Shown here: in pieces, positions 9,360-40,774 of the stretch
Numbering within the stretch: position 1 is the first letter of the stretch
How the letters are laid out: every line of letters begins with the position of its first letter
NCBI RefSeq assembly: GCF_001942305.1
Contig: NZ_MKKE01000007.1
Span: 52,320-116,319, forward strand
Direction: 5' to 3'
DNA length: 64,000 nt
Origin: Saccharomonospora sp. CUA-673
GTDB taxonomy: Bacteria; Actinomycetota; Actinomycetes; Mycobacteriales; Pseudonocardiaceae
The notes under the pieces: generated by a model
Told to the model about the DNA's origin: nothing
Databases searched by the model: none
Seen by the model: only the letters and a program-made list of their open reading frames with translations
Position numbers and translations under genes: made by a program

Positions 9360-9430
9360 GTCTCGACGATAGGCGCAGCCGACCGCGTTCGCGAACGGTG
9401 CGAACGCTGGTGCGCATGTGGGTGCACCAC

Positions 9431-9514
9431 GCCGCCGGATGCCAACACGGCGCCGCCAAACGCTGACACGGCGACGCGAAGTGCTGACACGGCGACGTGG
9501 GGTGCTGACACGGT
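9431..9514 (-). repeat. Array of four 21-bp degenerate repeats, minus orientation
   Basis: Read on the minus strand, four contiguous units carry CCGTGTCAGCAC or CCGTGTTGGCAT, with ends drifting from CCACGTC to GGCGGC. It starts 3 bases after the stop codon of the SGNH hydrolase (minus strand) and so again follows a gene's 3' end in that gene's direction. It is the same family as 387-491 and 37655-37802. Confidence 0.8.
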
Positions 9515-9516
9515 TG

Positions 9517-10293
9517 TCAGTCGACCAGTTCCTGCAGGGGGGTCAGGCGGGGGCGCTTGGGGGTGACGCCGTCGCCCATGGACTCGCCGCGCAGGTGGCG
9601 GCGGATCCACGGCAGCAGGTGGATGCGCGTCCATTCCAGGTCGCTGCGGCGCAGGGTGAGCCAGTTGTGGTGGTCCTCGGTCTCGGGCCACGGCTCGCGC
9701 CAGTCCGCGGAGGTGGGCACGCCCAGCACCTCGGCCGCGCGCAGCGCGATCCGGCGGTGCCCCTCGGCGGTGAAGTGCAGGCGGTCGTCACTCCACGCAC
9801 GGACGTCGTGCAGCGCGTCCATCGCCCACAGGTCGACGACCTCGGCGCCGTGCCGATCGGCGATCGCGCGCAGGTTCACGTTGTAGATCGCGACCTTGCC
9901 GCGCAGCACGCCCATCAGCGAGAGGCCCTTGGTGTCCGGACCGGTGAAGATCAGCACCTCGATGCCCTCGGCGCGCAGCGCGGCGACGCCCTCCTCGAAC
10001 TCGGCCGCCTTCTCGTCGGGGTCGGCGCCCGGCACGATGATGTCGTTGCCGCCCGCGCACAGCGTCACCAGGTCGGGTTTGGTCTCGAGCGCGACGGGGA
10101 GCTGTTCGGTGAGGATCTCGGAGAGCATCTTGCCGCGCACCGCGAGGTTCGCGTAGGCGAAGTCCTCGGACCCGCCGGCGAGGATCCCGGCCAGCCGGTC
10201 TGCCCAGCCGCGGTAGGTGCCGTCCGGACGCTCGTCGTTCAACCCCTCGGTGAAGCTGTCGCCGATGGCGACGAAACTGCGATATCCCGTCAC
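9517..10293 (-). CDS. SGNH/GDSL-family hydrolase
   Basis: 258 residues; GTG 10293 is chosen because GGAGGGAG lies just upstream and the product begins at the family motif (VTGYRSFVAIGDSFTEGLND). Block I has the nucleophile Ser13 in GDSFTEG, block III is LCAGGNDII with its Asn, and block V is the Asp-x-x-His pair in DDRLHFTAEGH. There is no signal peptide, so it is likely a cytoplasmic esterase or lipase-like enzyme. The C-terminal ~60 residues (tryptophan/arginine-rich, LEWTRIHLLPWIRRHLRG) are an extension typical of actinobacterial members. The substrate is unknown. Confidence 0.88.
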   Translation of the reverse strand: MTGYRSFVAIGDSFTEGLNDERPDGTYRGWADRLAGILAGGSEDFAYANLAVRGKMLSEILTEQLPVALETKPDLVTLCAGGNDIIVPGADPDEKAAEFEEGVAALRAEGIEVLIFTGPDTKGLSLMGVLRGKVAIYNVNLRAIADRHGAEVVDLWAMDALHDVRAWSDDRLHFTAEGHRRIALRAAEVLGVPTSADWREPWPETEDHHNWLTLRRSDLEWTRIHLLPWIRRHLRGESMGDGVTPKRPRLTPLQELVD

Positions 10294-10554
10294 GACGTCT
10301 CCCTCCGCCTGGTTGCGCGCATCCCCACGGCCGCCGATGCCGCTTCTCGTGCCCTCCGTCTCCTGATCAACGTCCGGCGGTGAGCGCATAGTCCCCGCAG
10401 CGCGCTCGCCCGAGAATCTCCGGTCGGATCGAGGAACCCACAGTCTCCTCCTTCGAGGTCGACCTACGCAGCCGTAATCCGTCCGCCGGCCGGGTGGTTG
10501 TGGCGTAACTAACGACGACCGGCCGGGGCCGGCGGCCACGGGGGATCAGGCAAG

Positions 10555-16282: not shown

Positions 16283-16321
16283 GGCGTCACCGTAACGCGT
16301 CGGGGTACGTTGGTGGTGTCC

Positions 16322-16420
16322 GCACGGGAGCCTGGTGGGCTGAGAGGGAGCACCGGCCGCGACGTCCGCGGCCCGACTCCGACCGTGGAACCTGATCCGG
16401 ATCATGCCGGCGCAGGGAGC
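16322..16420 (+). promoter_or_regulatory. TPP riboswitch upstream of thiOSG
   Basis: The THI-box core is clear: GGGCTGAGAGGGAGCACC at 16337-16354, then after a variable stem CCGTGGAACCTGATCCGGAT and CATGCCGGCGCAGGGAG. The closing GGGAG segment can act as the ribosome binding site region for thiO, so thiamine pyrophosphate would repress translation or transcription of thiOSG. A TACGTT at 16306-16311 could be the -10 element. Confidence 0.95.
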
Positions 16421-16429
16421 GTGAATCGT

Positions 16430-17554
16430 ATGCATGAACTCGCCGTCGTCGGTGGCGGCGTCATCGGCCTGGCCGTCGCGTGGAGGGCCGCGGCCGCGGG
16501 TCATCGCGTCACCGTGTTCGACCCCTCCCCGGAACGGGCCGCGTCGCGCGTCGCGGGCGGCATGCTCGCCCCGGTCACCGAGGCGTGGCCCGGTGAGGAG
16601 GACGTCCTCGCTCTCGGCGAGGAGTCGCTGCGCCGCTGGCCCGAGTTCGCGACCCGGCTCGCGTCGGACGGCTACGACCCGGCCCTGTCGACGGCGGGCA
16701 CCGTGGTCGCCGCGTTCGACCGCGCCGACGCCGACACCCTCCGCACGGTCGCGTCGTACCTGCACGACCTCGGTCGCGACGCCGACTACGTCCAGGCCCG
16801 GCAGTTGCGGCGGCACGAACCGGGCCTGTCGAACGCCGTCACGGGCGGGCTCGTCGTGCCGGGCGACCTCGCCGTCGACACCCGCCTGCTGCTCGACTCG
16901 CTGCGGATGGCGGCGCTGCAGAGGGGCGCGGCGTTGCTGTCCGAAGAGGTCACCGCCGTCGAGCCGGGCGAGGGCGACCGGATCGAGGTCCGGACCCTGG
17001 CCACGACCCGTCGGTTCGACCGCGTCGTCGTGGCGGCGGGCGCGTGGAGCGGCCGACTGCTGCCCGACCTCGCCCAGCACATCCGCCCCCTCAAGGGGGA
17101 GATCCTGCGGCTGCGCGCCCGGCCGACGACGTTGCCCCCGCCGGCCAGGACCGTGCGCGCGATGGTCGAGGGCGAACCCGTGTATCTCGTGCCGCGCGCC
17201 GGCGGGCACGACGGCGACATCGTCCTCGGCGCGACCCAGTACGAGGCCGGGTTCGACACGGCCGTCACCGCACGCGGCGTGCGCAGGCTCCTCGACGCCG
17301 CCGAGCGCGTGTTCCCCGGCATCGCCGAGTACGAGGTCGTCGAGACCGCGGCGGGTTTGCGTGCGGGCAGCGCCGACAACCTGCCGCTGCTGGGCGAGGT
17401 CGGCGGCGGCGTGTACGCCGCGACTGGACATCACCGCGGCGGGTTGTTGCTGGCCCCCGTCACCGCCGACGCGATCGCCGCGTGGCTCGCTGGCGAACCG
17501 GTGCCGCCCGCCGTCGACGCCGCCCACCCGAACCGCGTGAAGGAGCGAGTCTGA
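16430..17554 (+). CDS. thiO: Glycine oxidase ThiO
   Basis: An FAD-dependent glycine oxidase that makes dehydroglycine (iminoacetate) for thiazole synthesis. The dinucleotide fold opens the protein: [21 protein letters not shown] (GxGxxG) then VTVFDPS. The D-amino-acid-oxidase-like motifs are [17 protein letters not shown] and the C-terminal FAD-binding stretch [16 protein letters not shown]...[19 protein letters not shown] 16430 is preferred because the riboswitch's GGGAG lies ten bases upstream; GTG 16421 would be too close. It ends in a 1-base overlap with thiS (TGATG), so thiO, thiS and thiG form one riboswitch-controlled operon. Confidence 0.94.
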
Positions 17555-21842: not shown

Positions 21843-24310
<2,468 letters not shown>

Positions 24311-24415
24311 TCACTCCCTACGCTGGCATTACCCAGTCAGGTTCGTGCGGTCGGCGACGCCGGGACCCGGTCGTCCAGTCGCCCTCTCAGCCCGCCATGG
24401 CGCGAGCTCCCGCGT
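24311..24415 (-). promoter_or_regulatory. TPP riboswitch upstream of thiC
   Basis: On the minus strand: CGCGGGAGCTCG, GGCGGGCTGAGAGGGCGACT, then after the variable arm ACGAACCTGACTGGGTAATG and CCAGCGTAGGGAG. These are the standard THI-box blocks (CTGAGAG; ACCTGA...GGTAATGCCAGCGtAGGGA). The last block overlaps the thiC ribosome-binding region, so translational control by TPP is likely. Confidence 0.96.
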
Positions 24416-24512
24416 TGGATGTAGTTGTTCCGATCTCCGACCCTGCCATCTACGGCAGGCCCAGGCAACCGCCGTCACGGCGACGCGGTGCCGGGCGAGC
24501 GTTCGGGATCGG

Positions 24513-35930: not shown

Positions 35931-37594
<1,664 letters not shown>

Positions 37595-37605
37595 TCCACG
37601 CCTGA

Positions 37606-37652
37606 ACGAAACGGGCCCCGGGTGCTGTGTGCACCCGGGGCCCGTTCCGTTT
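37606..37652 (+). terminator. Strong terminator after groEL
   Basis: ACGGGCCCCGGGTGC (37611-37625) and GCACCCGGGGCCCGT (37631-37645) are perfect complements with a TGTGT loop, and the flanking AACGAA/CCGTTT can extend the stem. It lies 16 bases after the groEL stop and directly before the 21-base repeat array. Confidence 0.9.
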
Positions 37653-37654
37653 CC

Positions 37655-37802
37655 GCCGTGTCGGCATCCCACGTCGCCGTGTCAGCAACCCACGTCGCCG
37701 TGTTGGCATCCCGCGTCGGGCGTGTCAGCAACCCACGCGGGCGTGTCAGCACCTCAGGTCGCCGTGTCAGCAGTTGGCGTCGCCGTGTTGGCGCTTCGCG
37801 TA
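37655..37802 (+). repeat. Array of seven 21-bp degenerate repeats
   Basis: Units start at 37655, 37676, 37697, 37718, 37739 (22 bases), 37761 and 37782. Each contains CGTGTCAGCA, CGTGTCGGCA or CGTGTTGGC, and most end with CCACGTC or a close variant. It fills the whole space between the groEL terminator and the NUDIX stop at 37816. It is the largest of three arrays (others at 387-491 and 9431-9514). Confidence 0.88.
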
Positions 37803-37815
37803 CGGGTGCGCCTGG

Positions 37816-38223
37816 TCAGCGGGCGTTCATCTCGAACCAGGTCGTAATCGAGCGCTTGTATCCGTCCGGCATCCGAAGGGTCGCGACGTCGGTGGGGCTG
37901 AAGAGCTCGGCGGCGTCGTGCTCCGGCGATACGACAGGCGCTCCGTCCTCTACGAGCGTGCAGCCGTAGGTGACGATGAAGACGCTCCTCCCGACCGCAT
38001 CGATGTGGTACGTCCAGGCGTCGAGTAGCTCGTTCGCGCGCACGAGCAGTCGTGTTTCCTCGGCGATCTCGCGTACGACGCATTCCTCAGGGGACTCGCC
38101 CGGTTCGATGCGCCCTCCTGGAAGCTCCCACTCGTCGCGCTCGTTGTGCAGCAGCAGGACGCGCCCGTCGTGGATGACAACGCCCTTGACGGAGACGGGG
38201 TAGGTGGTCGCTTCTCCGGTCAC
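37816..38223 (-). CDS. NUDIX hydrolase
   Basis: ~135 residues. GTG 38223 is preferred because GGAGG lies about nine bases upstream; ATG 38238 or 38250 are alternatives that would place that site inside the gene. The Nudix box is present as GGRIEPGESPEECVVREIAEETRL (Gx5Ex7REUxEE), preceded by WELPGG. It hydrolyses nucleoside diphosphates linked to another moiety; the substrate is unknown. The preceding strand VSVKGVVIHDGRVLLLHNE is typical. Its 3' end abuts the repeat array after groEL. Confidence 0.88.
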   Translation of the reverse strand: MTGEATTYPVSVKGVVIHDGRVLLLHNERDEWELPGGRIEPGESPEECVVREIAEETRLLVRANELLDAWTYHIDAVGRSVFIVTYGCTLVEDGAPVVSPEHDAAELFSPTDVATLRMPDGYKRSITTWFEMNAR

Positions 38224-38271
38224 CGATCCATCCTCCATGCCGTTGTGCACGGAGGCACGAAGCTATTCCAT

Positions 38272-38299
38272 CGCTGTGTTGGCGCCTCGGGGGGGGGGG
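38272..38299 (+). repeat. Stray 21-mer-like unit ending in an 11-base G run
   Basis: GCTGTGTTGGCGCCTC resembles a single unit of the 21-base repeat family. It is followed by eleven consecutive G residues (38289-38299), the longest homopolymer in the window. The length of such a run is unreliable in draft sequence and prone to slippage in vivo. Confidence 0.6.
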
Positions 38300-38392
38300 C
38301 AGCCGTCCGGTTTGGGCTGTTCGGGGGAGGCGACGGCCGTGACGGTGGGTCATACCTAGCATGATCAACGTCACGGGGTTAGTGTCGATCAC

Positions 38393-40774
38393 ATGGCCGG
38401 ATCTGTGCTGGGAACCGAAGTCCGCCGGGTCGAGGACCCCGAACTGCTCCGCGGCGAAGCCACCTACGTCGACAACCTGCCGATCCCCGACGCGGCGCAC
38501 ATCGCGTTCGTCCGCTCGCCGTTCGCCCACGCCGAGATCACGGGCATCGACACGGCCGAGGCGCTGCAGGCCGACGGGGTGCTCGCCGTCTACACCGCCA
38601 AGGATCTCGACCTCGCCCCGGTGCGTCCGTTCATGGTCGTCAACGCCGCCTGCGAACGGCCCCCGCTGGCGATCGACCGGGTGCGCTTCGTCGGCGACCC
38701 GGTCGCCGTGATCGTCGCCGAGACCCGCGCCGCCGCGGTCGACGCCGTCGAACTCGTCGACGTCGACTACGAACCGCTGCCCGTGGTCGCCGACCCCGAG
38801 GCGGCCCTCGCCGACGATGCACCGCTGCAGTTCCCCGACCTCGGCACCAACATCGCCGCCGGCGAACGCGACGAGGACGGCGCCGAGATCCTCGCCGACG
38901 CCGACGTCGTCGCCCGCGCGCGCATCGAGAACCAACGGGTCGCCGTCGTACCGCTCGAGGGCAACGCCATCGCCGTCGAACCCGGCGGCGGACATCTCGG
39001 CGGCGACTACGACCTGACGATCCACGTGTCGACCCAGATGCCGCACGTGGTGTGGAAGCGTGCCGCCAAACAGCTCGGCCTCGACGCCGACCGGCTCCAC
39101 CTCGTCACCCCGCACGTCGCGGCGCGTTCGGCGGCAAGATCGGCATCATCGCCGAGCACCACGTGGTGATCGGCGTGGTGCAACGACTCGGCCGGGCCGC
39201 CAAGTGGGTGGAGACCCGGTCGGAGAACATGCAGGTGATGCCGCAGAGCCGCGCCCAGGTGCAGTACGCCGAGCTGGGCCTGAAGGCCGACGGCACGATC
39301 ACCGGGCTGCACTGCAACGTGCTCGGCGACTGCGGCGCCTACGCCGGGTTCGGCGGCGGGTTCGCGCTCAGCTCGACGCGGCTGATGGCGCAGGGCGTGT
39401 ACCGGATCCCGCGGATCAGCTTCGGCTCGATCGCCGTGCTGACCAACACGACGCCCACCGGTGCGTTCCGCGGGGCGGGCAGGCCCGAGGCGGCCGCGAT
39501 GCTCGAGCGGATCATCGACGTCGGCGCGGCCGAACTCGGCATGGACCCGGTCGAACTGCGGCGGAAGAATTTCCTGCCGCCCGACGCGTTCCCGTACACG
39601 ACGCTGCTCGGCGCCACCTACGACTCCGGCGACTACGACCTGCCGCTGCGCGAGGCGTTGCGGATCGCCGACTACGACGAGCTGCGCACGGAACAACAGC
39701 GGCGCATCGACGCCGGCCAGACGCGGCTGCTCGGCATCGGCGTCAGCACGTACGTCGAGATCACCGGCGGTGGTGGCGCCGAATTCGGTGCCGTCGAGGT
39801 CGGTGCCGACGGGCGCGCGACGGTCAAGGTCGGCACCTCCGGACACGGCCAGGGCCATGCGACGTCGTTCGCGATGCTCGCCTCCGACGCTTGGGCATCC
39901 CGCTGGACCGGATCGACTTCGTCCAGTCCGACACGGCGCAGGTTCCGCGCGGCGGCGGCACCGGCGGGTCCCGGTCGTTGCAGATCGGCGGCAGCGCGGT
40001 GCGCGAGGCGAGCGAACTGCTGCTCGCCAAGGCCAAGGAGCTGGCGGCGGCCAAGTTCGAGGCCGGCGTCGAGGACATCGAGGTCGACGCGAACGGACAC
40101 GGCGGACTGGGCGTGGCCGGCGTTCCCGGTGCGTCGGTGAGCTGGGCGGAACTGGCCGAGTACGCCACCCAGAACGGAATCCCGCTGGCCGTCGACACGA
40201 ACTTCACCCCGGGCGGTGCGACGTTCCCGTTCGGCGCGCACGTGTCCGTCGTCGAGGTCGACACCGAGACGGGCCGGGTGGAACCGGTGCGGCACATCGC
40301 CGTCGACGACTGCGGCCGGGTGCTCAACCCGCTGCTCGTGCGCGGACAGCAGCACGGTGGCGCGGTGCAGGGCATCTCGCAGGCGTTGTGGGAGCACTTC
40401 ACCTACGACGAGGACGGCAACCCGTCCACCGGAACGCTCGCCGACTACCTCGTCCCGTCGGCCGTGGAGGTGCCGCCGCTCGAGGTGTCGAACACGGAGA
40501 CCGATTCGCCGCTGAATCCGCTGGGTGCCAAGGGCATCGGCGAATCGGCCACGATCGGTTCGACGCCCGCGGTGCAGAACGCGGTCGTCGACGCGGTGAA
40601 GCATCTCGCGTGCGCCACATCGACATGCCGCTCACCCCGCAGCGCGTGTGGAAGGCGATCCGCGCGGCGCAGGGCGGTCGGCCCGACGACCCGTGGACCG
40701 AGCCGCCCGCCGCGTTCTCGACACTGCCGTTGCGCGACGGACCGGACCCGCACGCCGACGAAGCCGTCGCCTGA
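38393..40774 (+). CDS. Molybdenum hydroxylase large subunit, xanthine dehydrogenase/CoxL family (three frameshifts)
   Basis: ~794 residues after restoring three lost bases near 39119 (PHVGGAFGGKIG), 39891 (ASDALGIPLD) and 40608 (KHLGVRHIDMP). From ATG 38393: VLGTEVRRVEDPELLRGEATYVDNLP (Ald_Xan_dh_C hammerhead domain), then the molybdopterin-binding domains with GAFGGKIG, LTNTTPTGAFRGAGRPEAA, GTSGHGQGHATSFA, GGGTGGSRSLQIGG and GAKGIGESATIGSTPAVQNAVVDAV. No FAD or 2Fe-2S subunit genes adjoin, so it is an orphan large subunit here; partners may be elsewhere. The substrate (CO, aldehyde, purine) cannot be assigned; the CoxL loop AYRCSFR is absent (AFRGAGR instead), arguing against form-I CO dehydrogenase. 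Confidence 0.87.

Follow-up and report, generated by a model that had tools for sequence, protein, structure and literature searches.

MIRU are tandem repeats that lie between the genes of an actinobacterium, in which they resemble the arrays described here, and they are oriented with those genes; their units are longer and their loci fewer, and we know of no genome-wide dialects among them. REP elements, as treated in the part of PMC3733652 used here, are high-copy, extragenic and palindromic sequences that usually occur singly or as inverted dimers, with head-to-tail dimers absent or rare in most genomes; in two genomes they flank convergent genes on the 3′ side (<20 bp away), and in tandem gene pairs they sit close behind the upstream gene. 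For DUS, the corresponding part of PMC3630211 describes dialects that related species use around a constant core, with copies at gene ends and terminators. In the Beggiatoaceae, about 169 sets of short, intergenic TAACTGA direct repeats have been proposed as binding sites; going by the sections of that paper used here, they differ from the present arrays in having a 7-base unit, in lying mostly just before start codons and in being thought to act post-transcriptionally (PMC4679880). Prokaryotic satellites are tandem and dispersed, and some families have moved within their genome; the sections of the survey used here report 23 satellites for Amycolatopsis mediterranei and contain no description of a gene-end family or of dialects (PMC6749651).

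The arrays analyzed here belong to a large family of tandem DNA arrays with a period of 21 or 22 bp, which lie mostly at gene ends where gene placement was sampled. They were followed from a 64,000-nucleotide stretch of Saccharomonospora sp. CUA-673 (the window) into related genomes, and we tentatively propose that they are rows of sites to which a DNA-binding protein would attach, marking or insulating the ends of transcription units. The arrays share with REP/BIME elements accompanied by RAYT (GTAG- and CGTC-tagged palindromes) the high copy number, the extragenic position and the nearness to 3′ ends, but they are head-to-tail, consist of 3–11 units and lack a conserved stem. No palindromic stem kept by covariation was found in the array units of four unit sets, and PF01797, the Y1, RAYT-type transposase, had 0 matches in the CUA-673 genome (a draft that is 91.6% complete), with the control search positive in 5 of 14 genomes. 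An identity with REP/RAYT was rejected on these two grounds. No description of these arrays was found in the literature searched, the coverage of which is incomplete.

The array downstream of groEL

The focal array occupies positions 37657–37804 of the window on the + strand, and its seven units begin at 37657, 37678, 37699, 37721, 37742, 37763 and 37784. Every unit starts with CGTGT[CT][AG]GC and the spacing is 21 bp, with one step of 22 bp that makes the third unit 22 bp long; the array appears in three rows of the TRF output, with scores of 77, 138 and 161. The seven-unit array reported in the initial annotation is therefore real, and the CGTGT and the GGC/AGC center are constant across its units, as had been stated. 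The array also fills the space between the groEL hairpin and the convergent NUDIX gene. The hairpin (37610–37646, + strand), which was read from the sequence, has a 16-bp stem and a TGTGT loop and ends 10 nt before the first unit, while 11 nt remain between the last unit and the stop codon of the NUDIX-domain gene (37816–38250, − strand; Pfam NUDIX, E 2.4e-19). This hairpin was recovered in a search for hairpins between stop codons and arrays, as the case 62 nt 3′ of the stop, and was absent from the output of a T-run terminator scan. Across 37300–38500, no intrinsic terminator (a G+C-rich hairpin followed by a T-run) was found inside the array, and the sole site of that scan, 38028–38047, lies outside it. 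The groEL gene itself (35961–37594, + strand) is split between two frames, 35961–36437 and 36530–37594, both with Pfam Cpn60_TCP1 matches, and this represents a frameshift caused either by mutation or by an error in the draft.

A lone unit-like remnant, TGTGTTGGC, is located on the far side of the NUDIX gene (38275–38283, + strand), although its assignment is uncertain. The NUDIX gene, in the interval 37805–38314, is missing downstream of groEL in the other stretches from the genus, and the right flank of the array aligns with those stretches only from about 38315 onward. The remnant beyond the gene suggests that the NUDIX gene landed in or beside an array.

Two further arrays are present in the window. 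The first (389–493, + strand, five units) begins 2 nt 3′ of the stop codon of a gene ending at 386 and precedes an inverted repeat, and the other (9429–9512, − strand, four units) lies 4 nt 3′ of the stop codon of the minus-strand ORF 9517–10539. Since the groEL array lies behind a hairpin and the array at 389 lies before an inverted repeat, the arrays have no fixed place relative to terminators. In the Rfam search of the window, no family matched the arrays at the gathering score. Two TPP riboswitches were recorded in the same search, at 16314–16435 (+) and 24298–24423 (−).

Size and distribution of the family

The CUA-673 genome (G000; a 5.42-Mb draft in 85 contigs) was searched with a pair pattern in which CGTGT[CT][AG]GC occurs twice with 11–13 nt between (CGTGTYRGC-N11-13-CGTGTYRGC). 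This resulted in 484 adjacent unit pairs, with 0 for the reversed-pattern control. With these many copies, mostly at gene ends where sampled, the dispersed 3′-end repeat family that had been suspected is borne out.

A looser pattern, three CGTGT spaced by 21–22 bp, was used for the scan of the family and makes CGTGT a requirement. Matches were obtained in 155 of 390 Pseudonocardiaceae genomes (141 of the 338 good genomes, and 25 of 46 genera) and none in the remaining 235. Many of the positive genomes had just 1–2 matches and approximately 60, counted by eye, had at least 20, while the seven same-genus genomes, CUA-673 included, had 146–375 each. The reversed control gave mostly 0–2 matches, yet 52 in one genome (G325). 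In a sample of the order (397 genomes, including some family members), no genome outside the Pseudonocardiaceae exceeded 6 matches, and in a sample of the phylum (396 genomes) none outside the family exceeded 3. Among the matches listed, the array pattern is also found in contig 5.1 of Prauserella rugosa NRRL B-2295. When intergenic tandem repeats with a period of 17–26 were collected by a search blind to CGTGT, this motif was present in 31 of 36 arrays in G000 and 28 of 34 in G003, another member of the genus, as well as in 7 of 7 and 13 of 14 arrays in G310 and G221, which belong to other genera. In one further genome, G022, all 26 pairs listed for contig C1 (478549–1846346) are on the + strand, with 114 forward and 121 reverse in the genome as a whole, and array orientation in that genome may follow the replication arm.

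The patchy presence in 155 of 390 genomes is consistent with an explanation that is a serious contender, namely that the arrays are selfish DNA, tandem repeats which spread in the genome and persist where they do the least harm, that the host gains nothing from them, and that dialects of the unit would be successive waves of overwriting. Such a repeat is harder to reconcile with the lack of a Y1 transposase in the CUA-673 genome and with the absence of the array pattern from records of plasmids and phages and from viral contigs; a plasmid, phage or viral origin was rejected because there was no match.

The combination of a constant core, dialects and a gene-end location resembles DUS, as far as these are described in the part of PMC3630211 used here, and could indicate that the arrays tag DNA of the species for uptake or recombination. 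In contrast to DUS, which are short copies that are single or paired in inverted orientation, the present units are 21–22 bp long and in tandem. Abundant single copies were not found: in 451 kb, 37 of 161 exact cores were outside arrays compared to about 27 expected by our own base-composition estimate, so that lone cores are few and not clearly above chance. We consider an uptake tag to be very improbable.

Placement relative to genes

Placement was analyzed in contiguous samples of 839 kb from G000, 456 kb from G003, and 400 kb each from G310 and G221, which contained 40, 30, 8 and 14 arrays with at least three CGTGT, respectively. Genes were called by a simple codon-usage script for which stops are exact, and starts and small genes are not. 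Gap types were compared for 87 arrays, after the exclusion of four edge cases and one array inside a gene. Convergent gaps held 48 of the 87, even though only 336 of the 1,890 gaps are convergent (p = 5e-15, tested per gap and not per base), and divergent gaps held 7 (p = 0.016).

Arrays were also found close to stop codons. A position no more than 20 nt past a stop on the same strand was observed for 20 of 40 arrays in G000, 10 of 30 in G003 and 6 of 14 in G221, while G310 breaks this rule with 0 of 8 arrays (also given as 0 of 5). In G000, 27 arrays begin no more than 150 nt past a stop on their own strand. Of these, 20 begin 1–18 nt behind it, and in 5 of the other 7 (31–90 nt behind the stop) a hairpin lies between the stop and the array. 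Similarly, 12 of 20 arrays in G003 begin within 30 nt of the stop, and a hairpin intervenes in 5 of the other 8. Positions of this kind, behind stops or hairpins and between convergent genes, tolerate insertion and would therefore also suit a selfish repeat.

In gaps between tandem genes, 22 arrays were sense and 10 antisense (p = 0.050). The arrays are tandem and intergenic as MIRU are, and this count is the corresponding measure of their orientation. Taken genome by genome, the sense bias had p values of 0.039 (G000), 0.34 (G003), 0.63 (G310) and 0.69 (G221), and 3 of the 4 tandem-gene arrays in G310 were antisense. The start of many arrays just 3′ of a stop codon, together with the 22 sense arrays among 32 in tandem gaps, raises the possibility that the arrays act as RNA, in the form of transcribed 3′ tails that serve Rho-dependent termination or protect transcript ends. 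Rho loads on untranslated RNA. The groEL array, which sits behind a hairpin, argues against such a role, and the properties of the unit bear further on it.

Conservation within the unit

The unit profile was built from 128 full units of G000. Positions 8, 9, 16, 17 and 20 were near-invariant although they were not used for detection, and positions 11–15 were free. The doublet at positions 6–7 was CA in 100 of the 128 units, TG in 22, CG in 3 and TA in 2. Variation was unequal among positions in all four unit sets (chi-square p from 2e-8 to 5e-78), with a p value of approximately 1e-48 for positions 6–21 of the 128 units. The initial annotation had named a lack of further copies, or equal divergence at all positions, as outcomes that would speak against it; given the 484 pairs and the uneven divergence, neither was found. 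The period was also strict: a step of 21 bp accounted for 128 of 132 cases in G000 and for 196 of 206 cases in the other six genomes of the genus, and in G221, 53 of the 54 steps were 22 bp. Such a strict period and such near-invariant positions argue against a selfish repeat, and they are compatible with the proposed selection on a bound motif, which they do not prove. A mid-unit YYC skeleton beyond CGTGT fits the same-genus dialects, but it was dropped as position 14 is nearly random in G221.

Units also differ according to their place in the array. In G000, the gene-proximal unit had 2.25 mismatches to the consensus and units further on had 3.0–4.25, and TTGGC was more common in the last unit (18 of 40 compared to 19 of 132, p = 1e-4). 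With the proximal unit nearest to the consensus and the last unit rich in TTGGC, the arrays have a direction. In G221, C13 4–360 and C10 166244–166490 each contain a run of roughly twelve nearly identical 22-bp units, and one of these runs starts at a contig end. These near-identical runs show that some arrays undergo local expansion, which is also in keeping with a selfish repeat.

The covariance that an RNA element would be expected to display was not found. In the four unit sets, the strongest mutual information was between neighbors or near neighbors and not between helix partners. The mean folding z was −0.57 in G000 and −1.39 in G003, and z values below −2 were obtained for 3 of 40 and 12 of 30 arrays, respectively, so that the arrays of G000 fold hardly better than shuffled sequences. 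The only recurring stems were 4-bp wobble stems (GTGT-RCGY in G000, another register in G221), which we judged to be no more than conserved columns would produce by chance. In addition, the unit is C-rich in G000 and G-rich in the TGCG dialect. Conserved RNA structure was rejected on the basis of the weak z-scores and the missing helix covariation, and a function of the arrays as RNA is on the whole unlikely.

Open antisense frames do traverse the 21-bp arrays, and the strings of repeated peptides that had been pointed out on the opposite strand do occur in mechanical ORFs. The peptide reading nevertheless fails, because the 22-bp period in relatives breaks the 7-codon frame and because no three-base rhythm was found at the variable positions of the 128 G000 units; peptide coding was rejected for these reasons. 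The long near-identical runs in G221 would suit plain local slippage, but slippage cannot place one unit at scattered sites. We regard coding or slippage as an even poorer explanation than uptake tags.

Dialects at shared sites

An array is present behind groEL in 6 of the 7 same-genus genomes and absent in G005. The spelling at this site is YRGC in CUA-673, of the TGCG type in G001, G002 and G003, and of the CTGC type in G004 and G006, which have two units each. Syntenic stretches of 116–181 kb from the seven genomes were compared, and after one spurious row was dropped and two duplicates were merged, 20 distinct array sites were obtained. Eleven sites were common to at least two genomes, in no case with opposite orientation, and more than one dialect was seen at 7 of them. 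CUA-673 has arrays at six shared sites and uses mainly YRGC at all six. The preservation of strand and place at the 11 shared sites is unfavorable to a selfish repeat, while the mixed-dialect arrays and the empty orthologous sites that were also observed are favorable to it. The arrays are not essential, since they are absent from most genomes of the family and from some orthologous sites.

Unit identity was computed over positions 6–21. For pairs that include a G000 unit, it was 0.725 between sites of G000 itself (248 pairs), 0.263 where one site was compared across genomes (193) and 0.270 for the rest (2,855), and thus G000 units are no closer to the orthologous arrays of other species than background. 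High identity within the genome and background identity across genomes indicate that the units of CUA-673 were replaced wholesale. When G000 was left out, identity was 0.628 between sites in one genome (1,438 pairs), 0.673 at the same site across genomes (368) and 0.607 for the remaining pairs (6,008). As same-site identity somewhat exceeds within-genome identity in these six genomes, common descent at the site is still visible there, and genome-wide replacement is clear only for CUA-673. A replaced spelling at sites that were kept implies that units are copied across the genome.

Other genera have additional dialects, with units of 21 or 22 bp, and G293 contains dialects of both lengths; two dialects side by side in one genome are in keeping with overwriting by a selfish repeat. 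The same genome contains back-to-back array pairs (minus, then plus) approximately 10 bp apart, at C3 109053–109313, C9 409906–410121 and C9 839941–840091.

The constant 5-mer adjoins a stretch that changes wholesale between dialects, an arrangement that would be expected if CGTGT were a tag read by a protein and the changing 16–17 nt were read by an RNA guide. A search of the CUA-673 genome for one such filler (VCAGCANYYYRCGTCGC) resulted in 2 places, both of which were degenerate units within arrays, and no guide-RNA locus was found for this filler. The coupled change between CA and TG is also unlike single wobble pairs, and an RNA guide is the least credible of the explanations considered.

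Two longer sequences accompany some arrays. One (CTCGCCGGCGGGCAGGTCTC...) follows five G000 arrays, at C1 171470, C2 156086, C3 49554, C4 52723 and C6 105788; two of these five arrays are near contig ends, and the flank may be the border of a multicopy element. The other (CACCCGTCGCCCGACCGCC...), a dispersed stretch of about 50–60 bp, is often located directly behind the last unit or beside the array, at G002 5129, G003 206594 and 441984, G004 7539, G005 68701 and 73128, and G000 C6 99582 (script coordinates).

Discussion

The constraint on scattered positions, the period of two helical turns, and the absence of an RNA helix and of a reading frame together point to an element that acts at the DNA level and is read sequence-specifically. 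The placement at gene ends and in convergent gaps suggests that it could function as a boundary or a roadblock. In the binding-site model that we tentatively prefer, one protein is predicted to bind each unit, and because 21–22 bp correspond to about two helical turns, the proteins would share one face of the helix. The resulting row of proteins could serve as a boundary or roadblock, chiefly where two genes converge. If the reading protein changed, new units might be copied into the old sites by gene conversion or by unit-wise insertion, and mosaic arrays would then be leftovers of an ongoing replacement.

This model is consistent with the fixed period, the near-invariant positions, the same-strand shared sites, the distinct spelling in CUA-673, and the preference for proximity to stop codons in three of the four sampled genomes. 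The exception of G310, the weak sense bias in individual genomes, the patchy presence and the lack of a fixed relation to terminators speak against it. Unequal variation among positions could equally reflect what a selfish repeat needs for its own spreading, and the mosaic arrays are open to that explanation as well. We rate the two readings, one in which the arrays serve the host and the other in which they serve the repeat, as almost equal, with the bound array slightly ahead. A more far-reaching version of the binding-site model, in which the arrays form a code that punctuates gene ends across the whole family, is doubtful. In such a code, rows of units behind stops and terminators would be read by a protein, the word would be rewritten at hundreds of fixed sites as that protein changes, and sister species would keep the places and differ in dialect.

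If the arrays do mark gene ends, then transcription in the Pseudonocardiaceae, which include antibiotic producers, has a layer of punctuation that has gone unrecognized. Selfish arrays would instead represent an unusual dispersed repeat that is not palindromic and has no RAYT in the CUA-673 genome. In both cases, the persistence of places whose sequence is replaced in concert amounts to a natural experiment on changing many recognition sites at once, a type of concerted change that is usually studied in eukaryotic satellites.
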